Assembly: GCA_017624835.1 (NCBI GenBank)
Contig: JAGAMG010000030.1
Location: 1 to 47,721 of the forward strand
DNA length: 47,721 nucleotides
Direction: 5' to 3'
Source of the DNA: Lachnospiraceae bacterium
GTDB taxonomy: Bacteria > Bacillota > Clostridia > Lachnospirales > Lachnospiraceae
The translations under genes and the position numbers were made by a program. A model generated the notes under the pieces. The model saw only the letters and a list, made by a program, of their open reading frames with translations, made no database searches and was not told the DNA's origin. This document shows positions 8,941 to 23,290 of this stretch, piece after piece; the stretch's first letter is position 1; each line of letters opens with the position of its first letter.

Positions 8941-9489
8941 ATGTTTATTAAGGAAAAAGAATTCACTTTAAAAAACGGACAAAAGGTAATCCTCAGAAGC
9001 CCTTTTGAATCCGAGGCAAAAGTCTTAAATGACCACAAATATCTTACCTCCGGGGAAACTAATTTCTTGGCAAGATACCCTGAGGAAGTGGTCACTAAGG
9101 AAGAGATAACCAGGAAGCTGATTTCCATTGTGAATAAGGATGATAGGGATTTCTTCCTCTCTGCCTTTGTGGATGGCAAGTTGATTGCGGATTCCGGTAC
9201 TATGAAGCTCCGAAACAATCTAAAATATCGCCATAGAGGGTATTTTGGCGTTTCCATATTGCAGGCATATTGTGATTTGGGACTTGGAAGCATTATTTTG
9301 CAGGAGTCTATAAGACATGCCAAGGAGAATGGATTTGAGCAATTGGAACTGGGCGTGTTTGAGGATAATTACAGAGCCATTCATGTGTATGAAAAGGCAG
9401 GATTTCAAAAGGTTGGTGTCCAGCCCAGAGCATTTAAATTGAAGGATGGCACTTATCGGGATGAGGTGCAGATGGTGTTATTTCTATAA
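8941..9489 (+). CDS. GNAT-family N-acetyltransferase (RimJ/RimL-like)
   Basis: 182 residues. The N-terminus FTLKNGQKVILRSPFESEA is the usual entry strand of this family. HRGYFGVSILQAYCDLGLGS contains the acetyl-CoA loop region, and ELGVFEDNYRAIHVYEKAGF is the strongly conserved motif B (N-x-R-A-I-x-x-Y-x-K-x-G-F). It probably acetylates a small molecule or a protein N-terminus; the substrate is unknown. An in-frame GTG at 8926 would add five residues. Neither start has a strong ribosome site, so the start is uncertain. Confidence 0.82.
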   Translation: MFIKEKEFTLKNGQKVILRSPFESEAKVLNDHKYLTSGETNFLARYPEEVVTKEEITRKLISIVNKDDRDFFLSAFVDGKLIADSGTMKLRNNLKYRHRGYFGVSILQAYCDLGLGSIILQESIRHAKENGFEQLELGVFEDNYRAIHVYEKAGFQKVGVQPRAFKLKDGTYRDEVQMVLFL

Positions 9490-17293: not shown

Positions 17294-18010
17294 TTATGCA
17301 CAGGTAATTTGTTCAATGGTGCTGATAATTTGTTTTCTGACTAAGTCCGAAACCTCTCTGGTGGACAAATCCTTGTAATCCTCATAATAAAGGGGCTTTA
17401 GGAAATGAACCTGGGTGGTAACAGGCTTCAGAGAATTCATACCGAAGGGCTTGTAGGAATCAATCAGCGCTACCGGTACAATAGGGCTTTTGGCTTTCAT
17501 GGCACACTTAAATGCTCCGGGCATAAATTCCTGTACATTATTCTGGTTGTGTTCATAGCCGCCTTCCGGGAAGATAATATAGCGTCTGCCGTCCTTTACC
17601 TCGGAAATTACATTTAAAATGGTATTCAACTGAGCCTTCATACTGCTTTTGTCCAAACGGGTGCCCTTTAACAGAGTTACAAACTGGTCTGCCAGGAAAA
17701 GGTGGGAGCGTTTTTCGTCCATCAGTACGGTGCAGGGTTTCTTATGTGCACCGATGATGCCAAGGGAATCATATTTGCCCTGGTGGTTGGCATACATTAC
17801 ATAACCGCCCTCCTCGGGAAGGGTATCTTCTCCGTATACATTAGTATGTATGAGACCATTGTGCTTCATAATGGTAATCATGCGTCTTGCAATTCGATAA
17901 CGTTTGGCTTCGGAATACCTCCAGCCGTGACGTTCCACATAACCAACCTTCCAAAGATAATATAAGATGAATGGTAATGATACCAGACAGATATAAAATA
18001 GTCTAAGCAT
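17294..18010 (-). CDS. plsC: 1-acyl-sn-glycerol-3-phosphate acyltransferase (PlsC family)
   Basis: 238 residues. After an N-terminal membrane helix (about 1-20) comes the acyltransferase HX4D motif in YANHQGKYDSLG, then TRLDKSSM and the IIFPEGGYEHN motif, the usual substrate-binding FPEG block. It transfers an acyl group to lysophosphatidic acid to make phosphatidic acid at the membrane. The gene is read against the sporulation genes on both sides and separates spoVAA from spoVAC. AAAGGGA lies before the ATG. Paralogues with other acyl acceptors cannot be excluded. Confidence 0.88.
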   Translation of the reverse strand: MLRLFYICLVSLPFILYYLWKVGYVERHGWRYSEAKRYRIARRMITIMKHNGLIHTNVYGEDTLPEEGGYVMYANHQGKYDSLGIIGAHKKPCTVLMDEKRSHLFLADQFVTLLKGTRLDKSSMKAQLNTILNVISEVKDGRRYIIFPEGGYEHNQNNVQEFMPGAFKCAMKAKSPIVPVALIDSYKPFGMNSLKPVTTQVHFLKPLYYEDYKDLSTREVSDLVRKQIISTIEQITCA

Positions 18011-18165: not shown

Positions 18166-18207
18166 AAATTAGAATAAGAAATAAGGAAAGTGAAAGGGAG
18201 GCTTCAC

Positions 18208-18675
18208 ATGGCAAATATAGATCAGCAGAAACAACAGGAATATGAACAGTATGTAAAGAAAATGACCCCTACCCACAATATCTGGCTTCAGATGGCGAAG
18301 GCATTTCTGGTAGGAGGGAGTATCTGTGTATTAGGACAATTTATCCTGAATTATACTACAAATACATTGGGAATGGACAAGCAGACAGCGGGTAGTTGGT
18401 GCTCTTTGTTGTTGATACTTTTGTCTGTATTGCTGACTGGCTTTAATATTTATCCCAGTATTGTAAAATGGGGTGGAGCAGGTGCTTTGGTGCCCATTAC
18501 CGGCTTTGCCAATTCAGTTTCCGCTCCGGCAATTGAGTTCCAAAAGGAGGGGCAGGTATTTGGTATCGGCTGTAAGATTTTTACCATTGCGGGGCCGGTG
18601 ATTTTGTATGGGATTTTTGCAAGCTGGGTGCTGGGATTGGGGTATTGGATACTTAAGCTGTTTGGCGTGATGTAG
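18208..18675 (+). CDS. spoVAC: Stage V sporulation protein AC
   Basis: 155 residues with four membrane helices. The family signatures KKMTPTHNIWLQMAKAF, VKWGGAGALVPITGFANSV and SAPAIEFQKEGQVFGIGCKIFTIAGPVI are all intact. SpoVAC forms the membrane channel for dipicolinic acid and is osmotically gated. ATG 18208 has GGGAGG seven bases ahead; an upstream GTG at 18190 overlaps that site. spoVAD and spoVAE, which normally follow at once, are absent: the next 4.7 kb is accessory DNA. Confidence 0.93.
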   Translation: MANIDQQKQQEYEQYVKKMTPTHNIWLQMAKAFLVGGSICVLGQFILNYTTNTLGMDKQTAGSWCSLLLILLSVLLTGFNIYPSIVKWGGAGALVPITGFANSVSAPAIEFQKEGQVFGIGCKIFTIAGPVILYGIFASWVLGLGYWILKLFGVM

Positions 18676-18862
18676 TGGGCGAGATATAAATTATAATGCA
18701 AGTTTTGGGTGTCGGAAAACGCAGGAGAGTAGCGGGTTCCGGCATCTTTATGCAAATTATATCAGAAGGGGATTGCTGAACCTTATTTGCGAACCACGCA
18801 TTGCGTTTCGGCACGATTCATGTTATTATAAGGTATGTTATATTATAAATTGGAGAATACAT

Positions 18863-19063
18863 ATGGATACAGCAAATAAAATTAAAAATCTTAGAGCAAG
18901 TGTGGGAATGAATCGGAAAGATTTCTCAGAACATACAGGAATACCAATTCGTACATTAGAGGATTGGGAAGCAGGAAGGCGTATTCCACCAGAGTACGTG
19001 CCAAGAATGTTGGAGTATATGCTTAAGTATGAGGAGTTAGTCCGCAGAAAGGAGACTGAATGA
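18863..19063 (+). CDS. Small HTH protein coupled to antirepressor gene
   Basis: 66 residues, one helix-turn-helix domain: IKNLRASVGMNRKDFSEHTG followed by IPIRTLEDWEAGRRIPPEYV, an XRE-like fold often seen in phage and toxin-antitoxin regulators. The C-terminus is short and charged. GGAGA precedes the ATG at 18863; the longer frame from 18773 has no ribosome site. Its TGA overlaps the ATG of the next gene (TGATG), a coupling typical of operons. It likely comes from a prophage or other mobile element and may have lost its partner's function. Confidence 0.75.
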   Translation: MDTANKIKNLRASVGMNRKDFSEHTGIPIRTLEDWEAGRRIPPEYVPRMLEYMLKYEELVRRKETE

Positions 19064-19962
19064 TGAATGTGTATGTATATGATGCTAAAAGAGAAAAAAC
19101 TGAAATGGTATCATTAGAAAATAGTGAATTTGCGGAATATAATGAGGATGAGTTTTTTGAAGATAATAGCATTCGTAAAGTTTAGCATTCCGAATTAGAA
19201 GAATGGTATTTATCAATTTTTGATGTTGTAAAGGTATTAACAGATAGTAAAGATCCAAAACAATACATAAAGAAAATGCGTACACGCGATAAGGAATTAG
19301 AATCCAAGTGGGGTACAATTTGTACCCCACTTCAAATGCTCGCACCTGATGAAAAGATGAGAAAAACACAGACGGCTAATATAGAAGGTATTTTGAGAAT
19401 TATTCAATCCATTACATCTCCTAAAGCTGAGCCTTTTAAAGCGTGGCTTGCAAAAGTTGGAGCCGAACGTTTAGATGAAATAGCAGACCCTGAAAAAGCA
19501 ATGGAGAGAGCTGTTTCTACATATAAAGCAAAAGGATATTCGGATAAATGGATTTCACAAAGACTGCGTTCTATTGAAATTCGTAAAGAATTAACAGATG
19601 AGTGGTAAAATGCCGGAATAAATAATCCTAAAGAGTATGCGGCACTTACGAATATTTTAACTATGGCCTGGTTAGGAAAATCTGTTCAAGCATATAAACA
19701 ACTAAAAGGATTAAAAAAGGAAAATTTAAGAGACAATATGACAAACACGGAACTGGCATTAAATCTTCTTGCAGAGGTGTCAACAACTGAGTTATCACAT
19801 ATGCAAAAGCCTAGTGGATATGATGAGACAAAAGAAGTTACTATATCTGGTGGAGAAATAGCAGGTAATGCCAGAAAAGAATTAGAAGCAAAGCTGGGGC
19901 GGAGTGTTATTTCAAGTTCTAATGCTACTATTCCCGAATTGTTAGATGATACGAAGAAATAA
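19063..19962 (+). pseudogene. BRO-family phage antirepressor-like gene with two in-frame stops
   Basis: One reading frame of 300 codons encodes a recognisable BRO/antirepressor protein but is broken by TAG at 19183-19185 and TAA at 19606-19608. The first falls where a Trp is expected (RKV-stop-HSELEEW), the second directly after ELTDEW. No frameshift is involved. The pieces show WYLSIFDVVKVLTDS, RIIQSITSPKAEPFKAWLAKVG and GLKKENLRDNMTNTELALNLL, all typical of the family. Full-length relatives bind DNA and counteract phage repressors. Normal stop use elsewhere in the window makes decay, not recoding, the likely reason. Confidence 0.82.
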
Positions 19963-20089
19963 TATATTACTTTGCGCACTATTGGTATTTTGCTGACACG
20001 ATACTTTGTGTACTATGTAGAAAAAAGATGAAATATTACATTTGAATAAGAATTGCAATTTTAAGTTGCTTTTTTGAACGCTAATTTAT

Positions 20090-20098
20090 TGGTATACT
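20090..20098 (+). promoter_or_regulatory. Extended -10 promoter of the HTH-GpsA gene
   Basis: TGGTATACT (TG-n-TATACT) ends 19 bases before the GTG at 20118. The predicted transcript start (about 20105) would make the ATG at 20103 unusable and supports the GTG start with a very short leader. Confidence 0.5.
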
Positions 20099-20117: not shown

Positions 20118-21338
20118 GTGAATAATGTAAAGATAGGAGAATACTTATCAACGTTACGGAAATACTATAAAATTACCCAAGATGAATTAGCAGACAGACT
20201 AAGTGTGACGAGACAAGCTGTTTCAAAATGGGAAACAGGCGCTACGATTCCGGATATTGAACTGCTTATGAAACTATCGGAATTATATGGCGTATCAATT
20301 AACGACATATTATATGCAGACATTGCAAGTATAAAGTTTCAGAAAGAAATAGTTTTTCCGAGCAAGAATAAGAAATCAAAGAATGTAATGGTAATTGGCT
20401 GCGGGCGTTGGGGGGCGTTTATTGCGTGGTATTTGAATGAAATCGGGCACAGAGTATCCTTGTATGGAAGAGAAACATCTGTTAAGATGCAAAAATTGTT
20501 GGCAACGAGAGAAAATGAGTATTTGCAACTAAGCAATAGTATTGAATTGATTACAACTTTTGAAAATATAGAGGATGCAGAGTATATTATTATTTCCATA
20601 CCTGCTCAGAATTTACAGGATGTTGTAGCTGAATTGGCAATGTATACAATAGAAAATAAAACCATAGTTCTTTGCATGAAAGGGATAGAGATTACAACGG
20701 GGCGAAGATTGTCTCAAATTGTATCAGATGGGTTGAAATGTAATAATAGCGTGGCGGTATGGCTTGGACCAGGGCATGTGCAGGAATTCTATAGAGGTGT
20801 ACCGAATTGCATGGTAATTGATAGCAATAAGGAACTTGTTAAAGATATGTTGATACATGATTTTTCCAGCGGTTTAATTCGGTTCTATTATGGTACGGAT
20901 TTAGTTGGAAATGAGATTGGTGCAGCTGCAAAAAATGTAATTGGAATAGCGGCAGGAATGTTGGAAGGATTAGATTTGGCATCGTTAAAAGGAGCACTGA
21001 TGTCGCGTGGTACAAATGAAATTGCAAAACTGATTGTTGCAATGGGAGGTAAAGCAAGTACTGTATATGGATTATGCCATTTAGGAGATTATGAGGCGAC
21101 GCTATTTTCTGAACATAGTCATAATTTAACCTTTGGTAAGGCCCGGGTGTTGAAAAGGGATTATGACAAACTTGCTGAAGGATATTATACAGTAAAAGCA
21201 CTACGTAATTTAGGCAAAGCTTATGGTGTAGAATTGCCGATTTGCGAAGCGGTATATCAGATTCTATATGAAGACGCAAACCCACAAAAGATTTTGGAAA
21301 AGTTGTTTTCCAGAAGTCTACGAAATGAGTTTATTTAG
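20118..21338 (+). CDS. Fusion of XRE helix-turn-helix and NAD-dependent glycerol-3-phosphate dehydrogenase
   Basis: 406 residues in two clear parts. Residues 1-68 are an XRE/Cro helix-turn-helix (LRKYYKITQDELADRLSVTR, AVSKWETGATIPDIELLMKL). After a 20-residue basic linker, 89-406 match GpsA: nucleotide loop VIGCGRWGAFIAWYL at 92, CMKGIE, GPGHVQEFYRG in place of the usual GPSHAEE, the catalytic lysine in GAAAKNVIGIAAGMLEGLD, and SEHSHNLTFG. GpsA interconverts dihydroxyacetone phosphate and glycerol 3-phosphate. Here it may act as a ligand-sensing domain, an enzyme, or both; this is inferred. GTG 20118 is chosen for its GAGAGG site. No target genes are obvious next to it. Confidence 0.88.
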   Translation: MNNVKIGEYLSTLRKYYKITQDELADRLSVTRQAVSKWETGATIPDIELLMKLSELYGVSINDILYADIASIKFQKEIVFPSKNKKSKNVMVIGCGRWGAFIAWYLNEIGHRVSLYGRETSVKMQKLLATRENEYLQLSNSIELITTFENIEDAEYIIISIPAQNLQDVVAELAMYTIENKTIVLCMKGIEITTGRRLSQIVSDGLKCNNSVAVWLGPGHVQEFYRGVPNCMVIDSNKELVKDMLIHDFSSGLIRFYYGTDLVGNEIGAAAKNVIGIAAGMLEGLDLASLKGALMSRGTNEIAKLIVAMGGKASTVYGLCHLGDYEATLFSEHSHNLTFGKARVLKRDYDKLAEGYYTVKALRNLGKAYGVELPICEAVYQILYEDANPQKILEKLFSRSLRNEFI

Positions 21339-21640: not shown

Positions 21641-21814
21641 TTATATGAGACCGTGCTCCATTAGAATGTCAGCATAGTCTTCATAGGCTTTTTGCCAGGT
21701 ATCAAGTTCTTCATTTAATGAAGATATTTTATATTCCAAGTATTCGATATCTCTTTGGGCTTCTAAATATTTATCCAGAAGAATGTCGTATGGAATGGTA
21801 GGATTATTGTTCAT
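21641..21814 (-). CDS. Small coiled-coil protein encoded in the IS30-type element
   Basis: 57 residues, family not recognised. The sequence is helical and acidic with heptad spacing: YDILLDKYLEAQRDIEYLEYK, then ISSLNEELDTWQKAYEDY. It overlaps the 3' end of the transposase by 11 bases and has GAGAGG ahead of its ATG, so it is likely coupled to it. It could assist transposition or be a passenger. A longer frame from 21838 lacks a ribosome site. Confidence 0.6.
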   Translation of the reverse strand: MNNNPTIPYDILLDKYLEAQRDIEYLEYKISSLNEELDTWQKAYEDYADILMEHGLI

Positions 21815-23174
21815 GGCGGGCCTCTCTTTCTTTGACACTATTTTCTATGAGTACCGGTTTTAGCATGACTTCGTCTGGGGAGACTTTAAACTGTCCTGCT
21901 AAGAGCGGTATTTTTTTGTCCAGAAGAAGGGCTGCCAAATCAAACGGACAGGCACCATTTAGACTGTCTCGGGAAGTAGAGTTGATGTGGCTTGCCATGA
22001 GGCTTATATCTTCCTGCGTGTATTTATGCATGCTGCGCCCTTTTGGGATAACATAGCGTATGTATTCATGATTCTTCTCCAGTCGGGCTTTCTGATTGGA
22101 AACATACGGATCACAATAGAATACATAGGTACGATATGTTCCGGTTTCGGTTTTTTCGATATCCCACGGATTTTTGAATTCCGAGCCGTTATCCGTCAGT
22201 ATGACGGGAAAGTATTTTTTAAACCTACGGATTCCAAGAGCTTCCGTTAAATCGTTGATAGCATTAATAACGCTTTTCTGCGTGCAGTCAGGCATGAGAA
22301 TCACAAGCATAAAGCTGCAGCTTCGAAACAGAAGTGTAAGGAGACATTTTCCTTTACCGCGTCCGCCTTTGACGGTGTCCATTTCAACAACTTCTGTATC
22401 GGGATGAGCTTCCATAAAGCGTTCAAAATCCACATAGGTACGTTTGTTACGATATACCTGTTGAAGCTGTTTGCTTTTTCTTGGTTCTGATTTCTTCTTC
22501 CGTTTTTTATAACGAACTCGACGGGGAAGGTCAATGTTTCTAGCCTGAAACACACGTTGATCCAGATAGTTGTAAAGAGTCCGCCGACAAACAGGAATCT
22601 CGTCCGAATGTACTGCAAATATATGACTTAATGGTTGTCCTTTCAGGATAAGCGGTGATATCAGGTCGTTTAGTTCCTGTAATTCTTCAGGAGTCATGTT
22701 GATGCCTTTTCTGGAATCATACAGTTTCTTTTCGTATTGTCTTTGGGCATAAGCAGCCTCATAGATTTTCTTGTCGATAGGACAATGCTTATAATCTTCG
22801 CAGTAGTTGCACACATAAGGAACTTTGTCGATTTTATCACAGGTGTAAGGTAAGAAATACGGACAGACTTCAGTAGCATTTCTTCTGTAACACTTTTTAC
22901 AGTAGTAAGCACAATAACGTGAATTCTTCAGATAGCTGTAGCACTTTAGTTCCCTGCTCATCAAATCACAATCCTTGAAATGTTTGCAAATACAACAGTG
23001 ATAGCTGTGTTTGGCAGGAATAATTTTACGATAACGTTTTACTTCCTTAGAGATAGTTGTAGGATCTTTGTGAAGATTCCTTCCAATAGAAGTAAAAGTA
23101 CTTTTTTGCAACAGTTCCTGTTCGATATAGGTTCTGTCAGATAAGGTTAAATGTTTTTGATTATGTTCATTCAT
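21804..23174 (-). CDS. IS30-family transposase with cysteine-rich insert
   Basis: 456 residues. The N-terminal helix-turn-helix (HLTLSDRTYIEQELLQKSTF, RNLHKDPTTISKEVKRY) is the IS30 type. The DDE core is complete: D in VVEMDTVKGG, D in VILTDNGSEFKNP, and E in ARLEKNHEYIRYVIPKG. Between the two lies a region (about 55-125) with about 14 cysteines in CxxC-like pairs (HCCICKHFKDC, YYCKKCYRR, VCNYCEDYKHC), suggesting bound zinc; most IS30 transposases lack this. ATG 23174 has AAAGGA upstream; a TTG at 23234 would add 20 residues without a site. Confidence 0.92.
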   Translation of the reverse strand: MNEHNQKHLTLSDRTYIEQELLQKSTFTSIGRNLHKDPTTISKEVKRYRKIIPAKHSYHCCICKHFKDCDLMSRELKCYSYLKNSRYCAYYCKKCYRRNATEVCPYFLPYTCDKIDKVPYVCNYCEDYKHCPIDKKIYEAAYAQRQYEKKLYDSRKGINMTPEELQELNDLISPLILKGQPLSHIFAVHSDEIPVCRRTLYNYLDQRVFQARNIDLPRRVRYKKRKKKSEPRKSKQLQQVYRNKRTYVDFERFMEAHPDTEVVEMDTVKGGRGKGKCLLTLLFRSCSFMLVILMPDCTQKSVINAINDLTEALGIRRFKKYFPVILTDNGSEFKNPWDIEKTETGTYRTYVFYCDPYVSNQKARLEKNHEYIRYVIPKGRSMHKYTQEDISLMASHINSTSRDSLNGACPFDLAALLLDKKIPLLAGQFKVSPDEVMLKPVLIENSVKEREARHEQ

Positions 23175-23290
23175 ATGGTAATCCTTTCCAACAGACAGAT
23201 AACCAAAAGAGATTGTACCAAAAACTATGTGCAAGAGTAAATTCCGGATTTGAATATTTTGGGGGTAAAAAACTGGAATTTAAAAATTCA

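Follow-up and report, generated by a model that had tools for sequence, protein, structure and literature searches.

What is a DNA-binding domain doing on a protein that resembles glycerol-3-phosphate dehydrogenase (GPDH), the enzyme that supplies lipids with their glycerol backbone? The question is raised by one open frame of 406 codons on the forward strand (20118-21338) of the 47,721-nucleotide stretch of DNA analysed here, which comes from a gut-type bacterium of the Lachnospiraceae and which we call the window. The initial annotation had read this frame as an XRE-type helix-turn-helix (HTH) joined to a GpsA-like enzyme, and domain searches bear this out. We take GTG 20118 rather than ATG 20103 as the likely start, because homologues begin at the aligned position. 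The HTH occupies residues 1-68 (20118-20321), with VTRQAVSKWE as recognition-helix region, and matches Pfam HTH_3 at residues 13-63 (3.2e-14, 53.1 bits against a cut-off of 23). It is followed by a linker, residues 69-87 (20322-20378), which is KFQKEIVFP-like in eight of 12 fusions and modelled with low confidence at residues 76-79, and by a GPDH-fold domain, residues 88-406 (20379-21335). The latter matches NAD_Gly3P_dh_N (PF01210) at residues 90-239 (6.6e-24, 85.1 bits) and NAD_Gly3P_dh_C (PF07479) at residues 261-394 (4.8e-38, 131 bits), well above the curated cut-offs of 23.1 and 25. An AlphaFold2 model of the protein, built on an alignment of 65 relatives (pLDDT 89.7, pTM 0.78), retrieves GPDHs at Foldseek ranks 1-26 in the PDB. 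Among NCBIfam models, NF000940 is passed (204.2, cut-off 202) and NF000942 is not (250.7, cut-off 257), and the listed equivalog models score far below their cut-offs. The protein hence has an enzyme fold and a DNA-binding domain in one chain, as trigger enzymes do. In PutA and similar trigger enzymes, this arrangement makes regulation follow the substrate or redox state. PutA-type proteins use other DNA-binding and enzyme domains than the HTH-GPDH fusion.

A join of this kind might be an error of sequencing, or its homologues might always be separate genes, as the initial annotation had cautioned. A scan of genome contigs disposes of both. Among the best 80 of 389 relatives, 11 are HTH fusions with 58-82% identity to the window protein, which makes 12 genomes including the window. 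Ten of these frames are uninterrupted (L023-L032) and one is broken near residue 322 (L035). Since at least 11 other genomes carry the fusion, ten of them uninterrupted, the one in the window is neither a sequencing join nor a pair of separate genes. The HTH is wholly absent from most proteins related to the enzyme half. In the genus of the window, the subfamily was found in six of the 121 genomes searched, always as a fusion. Samples of 392 genomes from the order and 398 from the phylum contained no further fusions; they gave another 11 and 17 relatives, respectively, in which the match does not extend over the HTH, and one of these (G303) is a fragment. No fusion appeared among the plasmid matches listed (20 of 629 rows) or among the phage matches listed (20 of 58). 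A viral contig (L162) carries an HTH-less relative.

On the tree, fusions are interspersed with HTH-less forms. Eleven of the 12 fusions have HTHs that are 55-95% identical to one another and only 31-38% identical to that of L030, which looks separately acquired. No same-strand HTH gene that could be a split-off half was found in the 1.5 kb before the HTH-less relatives (80 loci). The nearest HTH matches to such genes lie behind them on the opposite strand, at 65 bases in L090 and 460 bases in L041, and L041 has one same-strand HTH match about 1.5 kb upstream of the HTH-less gene.

We compared 17 fusion rows (12 distinct genomes), 13 canonical clostridial GpsA and 70 relatives lacking an HTH in one alignment, which places the enzyme half in a divergent, mostly HTH-less GpsA lineage of the Bacillota. 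The nucleotide loop reads GxGR[W/F]G in all 87 subfamily rows, with an Arg (R97 in the window protein, codon 20406-20408) where the 13 canonical proteins have Ser, Thr or Gly. The same 87 rows, including the 70 without HTH, read GPGH where all 13 canonical proteins read GPSH, and the subfamily is set apart at other positions too. The GPGHVQE motif, proposed earlier as the one altered motif and as a change that might tune the enzyme, is therefore a mark of the whole lineage and not a peculiarity of the fusion; nor is it the only alteration, because a more important residue is also replaced. This is the Arg of the SRN motif, present in 13 of 13 canonical proteins and substituted by His, Gln or Asn in all 86 alignable subfamily rows (five duplicates). 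In the window protein it is H335 (codon 21120-21122), at the position of human GPD1 R269 (human GPDH numbering from PMC12874384). The SRN of 1z82, 1evy and 3k96 aligns to an SHN of the window protein in the PDB comparison. A weak alignment with human GPD1, locally ungapped, sets H333 opposite R269, but we take residue 335 as the equivalent because an invariant Asn is found only at residue 336. Of 20 further relatives taken from the samples of the order and the phylum, the 19 that cover the site have R97, and all 20 have His or Asn at the 335 position. R337 is retained in 65 of the 70 HTH-less relatives; 11 of 16 fusion rows have Leu there.

The catalytic residues are kept. K188, K272, D324, T328 and N336 correspond to human K120, K204, D260, T264 and N270, and none of them is replaced in any fusion row that extends over its position. 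The earlier description of a complete GPDH thus holds for the catalytic Lys/Lys/Asp, but the window protein cannot be classed as a canonical GpsA, because H335 replaces the Arg that binds the substrate phosphate. Canonical GpsA (PDB 1z82, 3k96, 1evy) shares the fold and the catalytic Lys/Lys/Asp/Thr/Asn with the fusion, but is only about 26-31% identical to it, keeps the SRN Arg, has Ser, Thr or Gly in place of R97 (clostridial set) and lacks an HTH. The HTH-less R97/H335 proteins, such as those of Lachnoclostridium phytofermentans (L050), Coprococcus catus (L055) and L069, are much closer. They have the same active-site signature, and enzyme halves are mostly about 57-69% identical among fusion and HTH-less loci (best 80 of 389), against about 50% for the phylum sample. 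The HTH-less genes differ in lacking the HTH and in their surroundings, some being located between metG and tatD (metG adjacent in 11 loci, tatD in 10) and others behind plsY (five loci).

According to PMC12874384, R269 of human GPDH forms ion pairs with the substrate phosphate and with a phosphate of NAD, and the R269A change lowers kcat/Km 4.5 million-fold, with partial rescue by free guanidinium. Since R97 belongs to the GxGxxG loop, which touches NAD, it is natural to suppose that the guanidinium has been relocated. Perhaps the R97 guanidinium, reaching in from the nucleotide loop, stands in for R269.

Does such a lineage still work as a GPDH? A single PF07479 protein is present in 17 of the 28 genomes holding the subfamily and in 20 of 28 genomes with HTH-less members, three of these 20 being one-contig assemblies at 99% completeness. 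The HTH-less gene is directly behind plsY in five loci (L058, L068, L069, L070, L073), as is canonical gpsA in 11 of 13 canonical loci; a plsY more divergent than our query could have escaped this search. Because the lineage is often the sole GpsA-like protein and follows plsY in these five loci, it probably still reduces dihydroxyacetone phosphate (DHAP) to glycerol-3-phosphate (G3P). Glycerol kinase, another source of G3P, scores above cut-off in 18 of the 21 genomes checked, so glycerol-derived G3P is open to many of them, though not to G217 and G222 as assembled.

The fusions themselves are less clear-cut. We examined the genomes of 11 of them, all but that of L035: seven also encode a canonical GpsA, three have only the fusion (G055, G199 and G201, which are incomplete or small) and G200 has two divergent homologues. 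The genome of the window, about 85% complete, encodes a second, canonical GpsA (G000:C54), 31% identical and directly behind plsY. In the genome of L029, the fusion has a second, divergent GPDH-like gene (G200:C32:4034-4489) about 1 kb away.

With a canonical GpsA encoded alongside it in seven of 11 genomes, the fusion does not have to act as an enzyme in those. The GPDH domain might then be a pure sensor that has lost catalysis and binds NAD(H), a phosphometabolite or both only to control the HTH. The missing R269 equivalent would fit such a role, as would the replacement of R337 by Leu in most fusion rows, a position kept in nearly all HTH-less relatives. There is also a precedent in BzdR (PMC3602430), the closest described analogue that we met, where an HTH is joined to a shikimate-kinase-like domain whose ancestral enzyme activity was lost. 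The parallel is incomplete, because the effector half is here a GPDH and not a shikimate-kinase-like domain, its catalytic residues are kept, and only its own promoter is implicated, whereas BzdR controls a set of benzoate-degradation genes. Moreover, the change at R269 is common to HTH-less relatives that are often the sole GpsA-like protein of their genome, and only the fusion was found in G055, G199 and G201. We thus regard a catalytically dead sensor as unlikely, even if it is the most serious of the competing explanations. Open-licence literature on GpsA with HTH, XRE or repressor, or on enzyme-HTH fusions, yielded no HTH-GpsA protein; one paper that matched concerns gpsA and EVE as separate genes.

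The suggestion of a one-protein sensor or regulator, made before any comparison, is rendered plausible by a conserved element at the promoter of the fusion. Comparison of promoters between fusions revealed a candidate operator, ATTGCAATTTTAAGTTGCT (20052-20070, forward strand), with the dyad GCAA-N7-TTGC. Comparison of nine promoters gave a candidate -10, TATACT (20093-20098, forward strand), which is preceded by TG and has no recognisable -35. The pattern WTGC-N9-TTGCW is found upstream of nine of the 12 fusions and of only two of 68 HTH-less relatives (L044, L058), an enrichment with a Fisher probability of 5e-8 when relatedness is ignored. In one clade, it accompanies nine of ten fusions and none of the seven nested HTH-less members. 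In all nine cases a TANANT hexamer lies 22 bases downstream of the element, and the dyad is centred at -43 from the inferred start. None of the nine promoters has a -35 better than four of six at spacings of 15-19, whereas the three element-less fusions have better -35/-10 pairs, matching 9-10 of 12 positions. A generic scan of the window for promoters and terminators listed neither the candidate -10 nor a terminator. In several fusion promoters a TTRCA-like half-site can be seen by eye about 17 bases before the dyad, in the window at approximately 20036-20040.

The element was first spotted by eye, and we therefore corrected for the search by testing every 3-mer/gap/4-mer pattern. In the real promoters, the best one occurred in seven of the nine chosen fusions. 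The best pattern never exceeded six of nine in 200 order-2 shuffles (six was reached four times), nor in 200 draws of nine HTH-less relatives (six was reached six times). With a leave-one-group-out matrix that includes the -10, seven of nine fusions outscored all 240 shuffled sequences, whose maximum was 8.0. L025 (1.5) and L028 (5.1) scored below this maximum, but their best position was still the same site. The top HTH-less relative reached 4.4.

The HTH might nevertheless be a passenger with no role at this promoter, the element being bound by another factor or inherited with the locus. Close relatives nested in the same clade do without the HTH, and some fusions have an HTH but no element: its absence from L030 goes with an unrelated HTH, but it is missing also from L031 and L032, whose HTH is related (55-66% identity). 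Strong purifying selection on the HTH speaks against a passenger. Both halves of the fusion are under purifying selection: dN/dS between L023 and L024 is 0.067 for the HTH and 0.087 for the enzyme, most other pairs being synonymously saturated. An element inherited with the locus is also difficult to reconcile with its absence from all seven nested HTH-less relatives, and with flanking promoter DNA that is otherwise dissimilar between fusions. We consider a passenger HTH quite improbable.

If the fusion binds this element, does it act elsewhere in the genome? We inspected one by one the sites matching the strict pattern AWTGC-N8-RTTGCT in three of the eight genomes scanned with it, G000, G003 and G072, a search that degenerate sites would escape; the reversed pattern was set aside as a control because it contains CG, which we expect to be depleted. 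There were 11, eight and 13 strict sites, respectively. Besides the fusion's own site, only one in G000 and one in G072 fall outside gene bodies, and one intragenic site of G000 also falls 81 bases ahead of the gene that follows. These three genomes thus offer no convincing regulon beyond the fusion's own promoter. The near-confinement of the other strict sites to gene bodies points to autoregulation with few other targets.

The neighbourhood gives little guidance, since no neighbour is constant among the fusions and function cannot be deduced from it. Genes of spoVA are near the fusion in the window, L023 and L024, spoVT is within about 4.3 kb in four cases, and a metG-like gene is near L035. 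In the window, as in L023 and L024, the upstream neighbour is spoVAC (18190-18675, forward strand). Between it and the fusion are, on the same strand, a small HTH gene (18773-19063) and a broken gene for a phage-type BRO-N protein (19063-19956); the same pair is found in L023, with an intact 298-residue BRO-N homologue (87% identical) in the same place, and an AbiEii-type gene is found in L024. An IS30-family transposase gene follows on the reverse strand (21804-23234; NF033563, 114.5 bits, cut-off 80). The setting is variable DNA beside an IS30 element and a phage-gene relic, much as had been noted from the outset. In L023, the fusion is followed by 130 bases (9247-9376) that copy the 3' end of a spoVAC and are 86% identical to window positions 18546-18675, whereas the full spoVAC of L023 is 73% identical to the window gene over that stretch. 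The window has no such copy. The arrangement in L023 suggests that a cassette entered at the end of spoVAC and pushed the old end aside. A PlsC-type acyltransferase gene lies between spoVAA and spoVAC in the window, on the opposite strand (17294-18010), and is not between them in L023. Downstream of the fusion in L031 (4019-5823) are plsY-family and MGDG-synthase-like genes (Pfam), and plsY occupies the same place in L032.

These surroundings raise the possibility that the fusion chiefly controls other genes, either of a mobile cassette behind spoVAC or of lipid metabolism. The displaced spoVAC end of L023 and the exchange of small HTH and BRO-N genes (window, L023) for an AbiEii-type gene (L024) would suit the former, the plsY-family and MGDG-synthase-like genes of L031 and the plsY of L032 the latter. 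Yet no neighbour is shared by all fusions, and in G000, G003 and G072 the strict sites other than the fusion's own are intragenic, apart from one each in G000 and G072. This explanation is the least probable of those that we considered.

We favour instead, with a confidence just short of even, a bifunctional enzyme, one whose second task is to regulate the gene that encodes it. The join of HTH and GPDH, together with a matching promoter mark kept in some relatives, suggests that the enzyme may control its own production. The fusion, its conservation, the pattern of active-site residues and a promoter element that for the most part accompanies the HTH are observed; DNA binding, sign of regulation, coupling to a ligand and catalysis we infer as follows. 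The divergent C-terminal GPDH would probably still reduce DHAP to G3P. The N-terminal HTH, probably as a dimer, would bind the short dyad near -43 of its own promoter and thereby adjust transcription of the fusion gene. The signal would be the closure of the GPDH domain upon a ligand, NAD(P)H, DHAP or G3P, altering DNA binding. Because the dyad is centred at -43 and no -35 is recognisable, activation fits somewhat better than repression. Activation from such a position has a precedent in lambda CI at PRM. The most specific version of this bifunctional-enzyme reading, a GPDH acting as its own transcription factor in which ligand closure switches a single-target positive autoregulation and the phosphate Arg has moved from R269 to R97, can be advanced only tentatively.

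Part of the interest of these proteins is independent of the HTH. The detailed phosphodianion-activation model developed for human GPDH can be put to a natural test in a GPDH lineage that lacks R269 and provides the sole GpsA-like protein of near-complete genomes, and this Bacillota-wide group of R269-less GpsA (such as the HTH-less L050, L055, L069 and L173-L182) merits its own enzymological study. If self-regulation of the fusion is true, a central enzyme of lipid and redox metabolism would join the short list of enzymes that double as transcription factors, and the HTH-less relatives on the same tree would allow the gain and loss of the HTH to be tracked together with the gain and loss of the operator.
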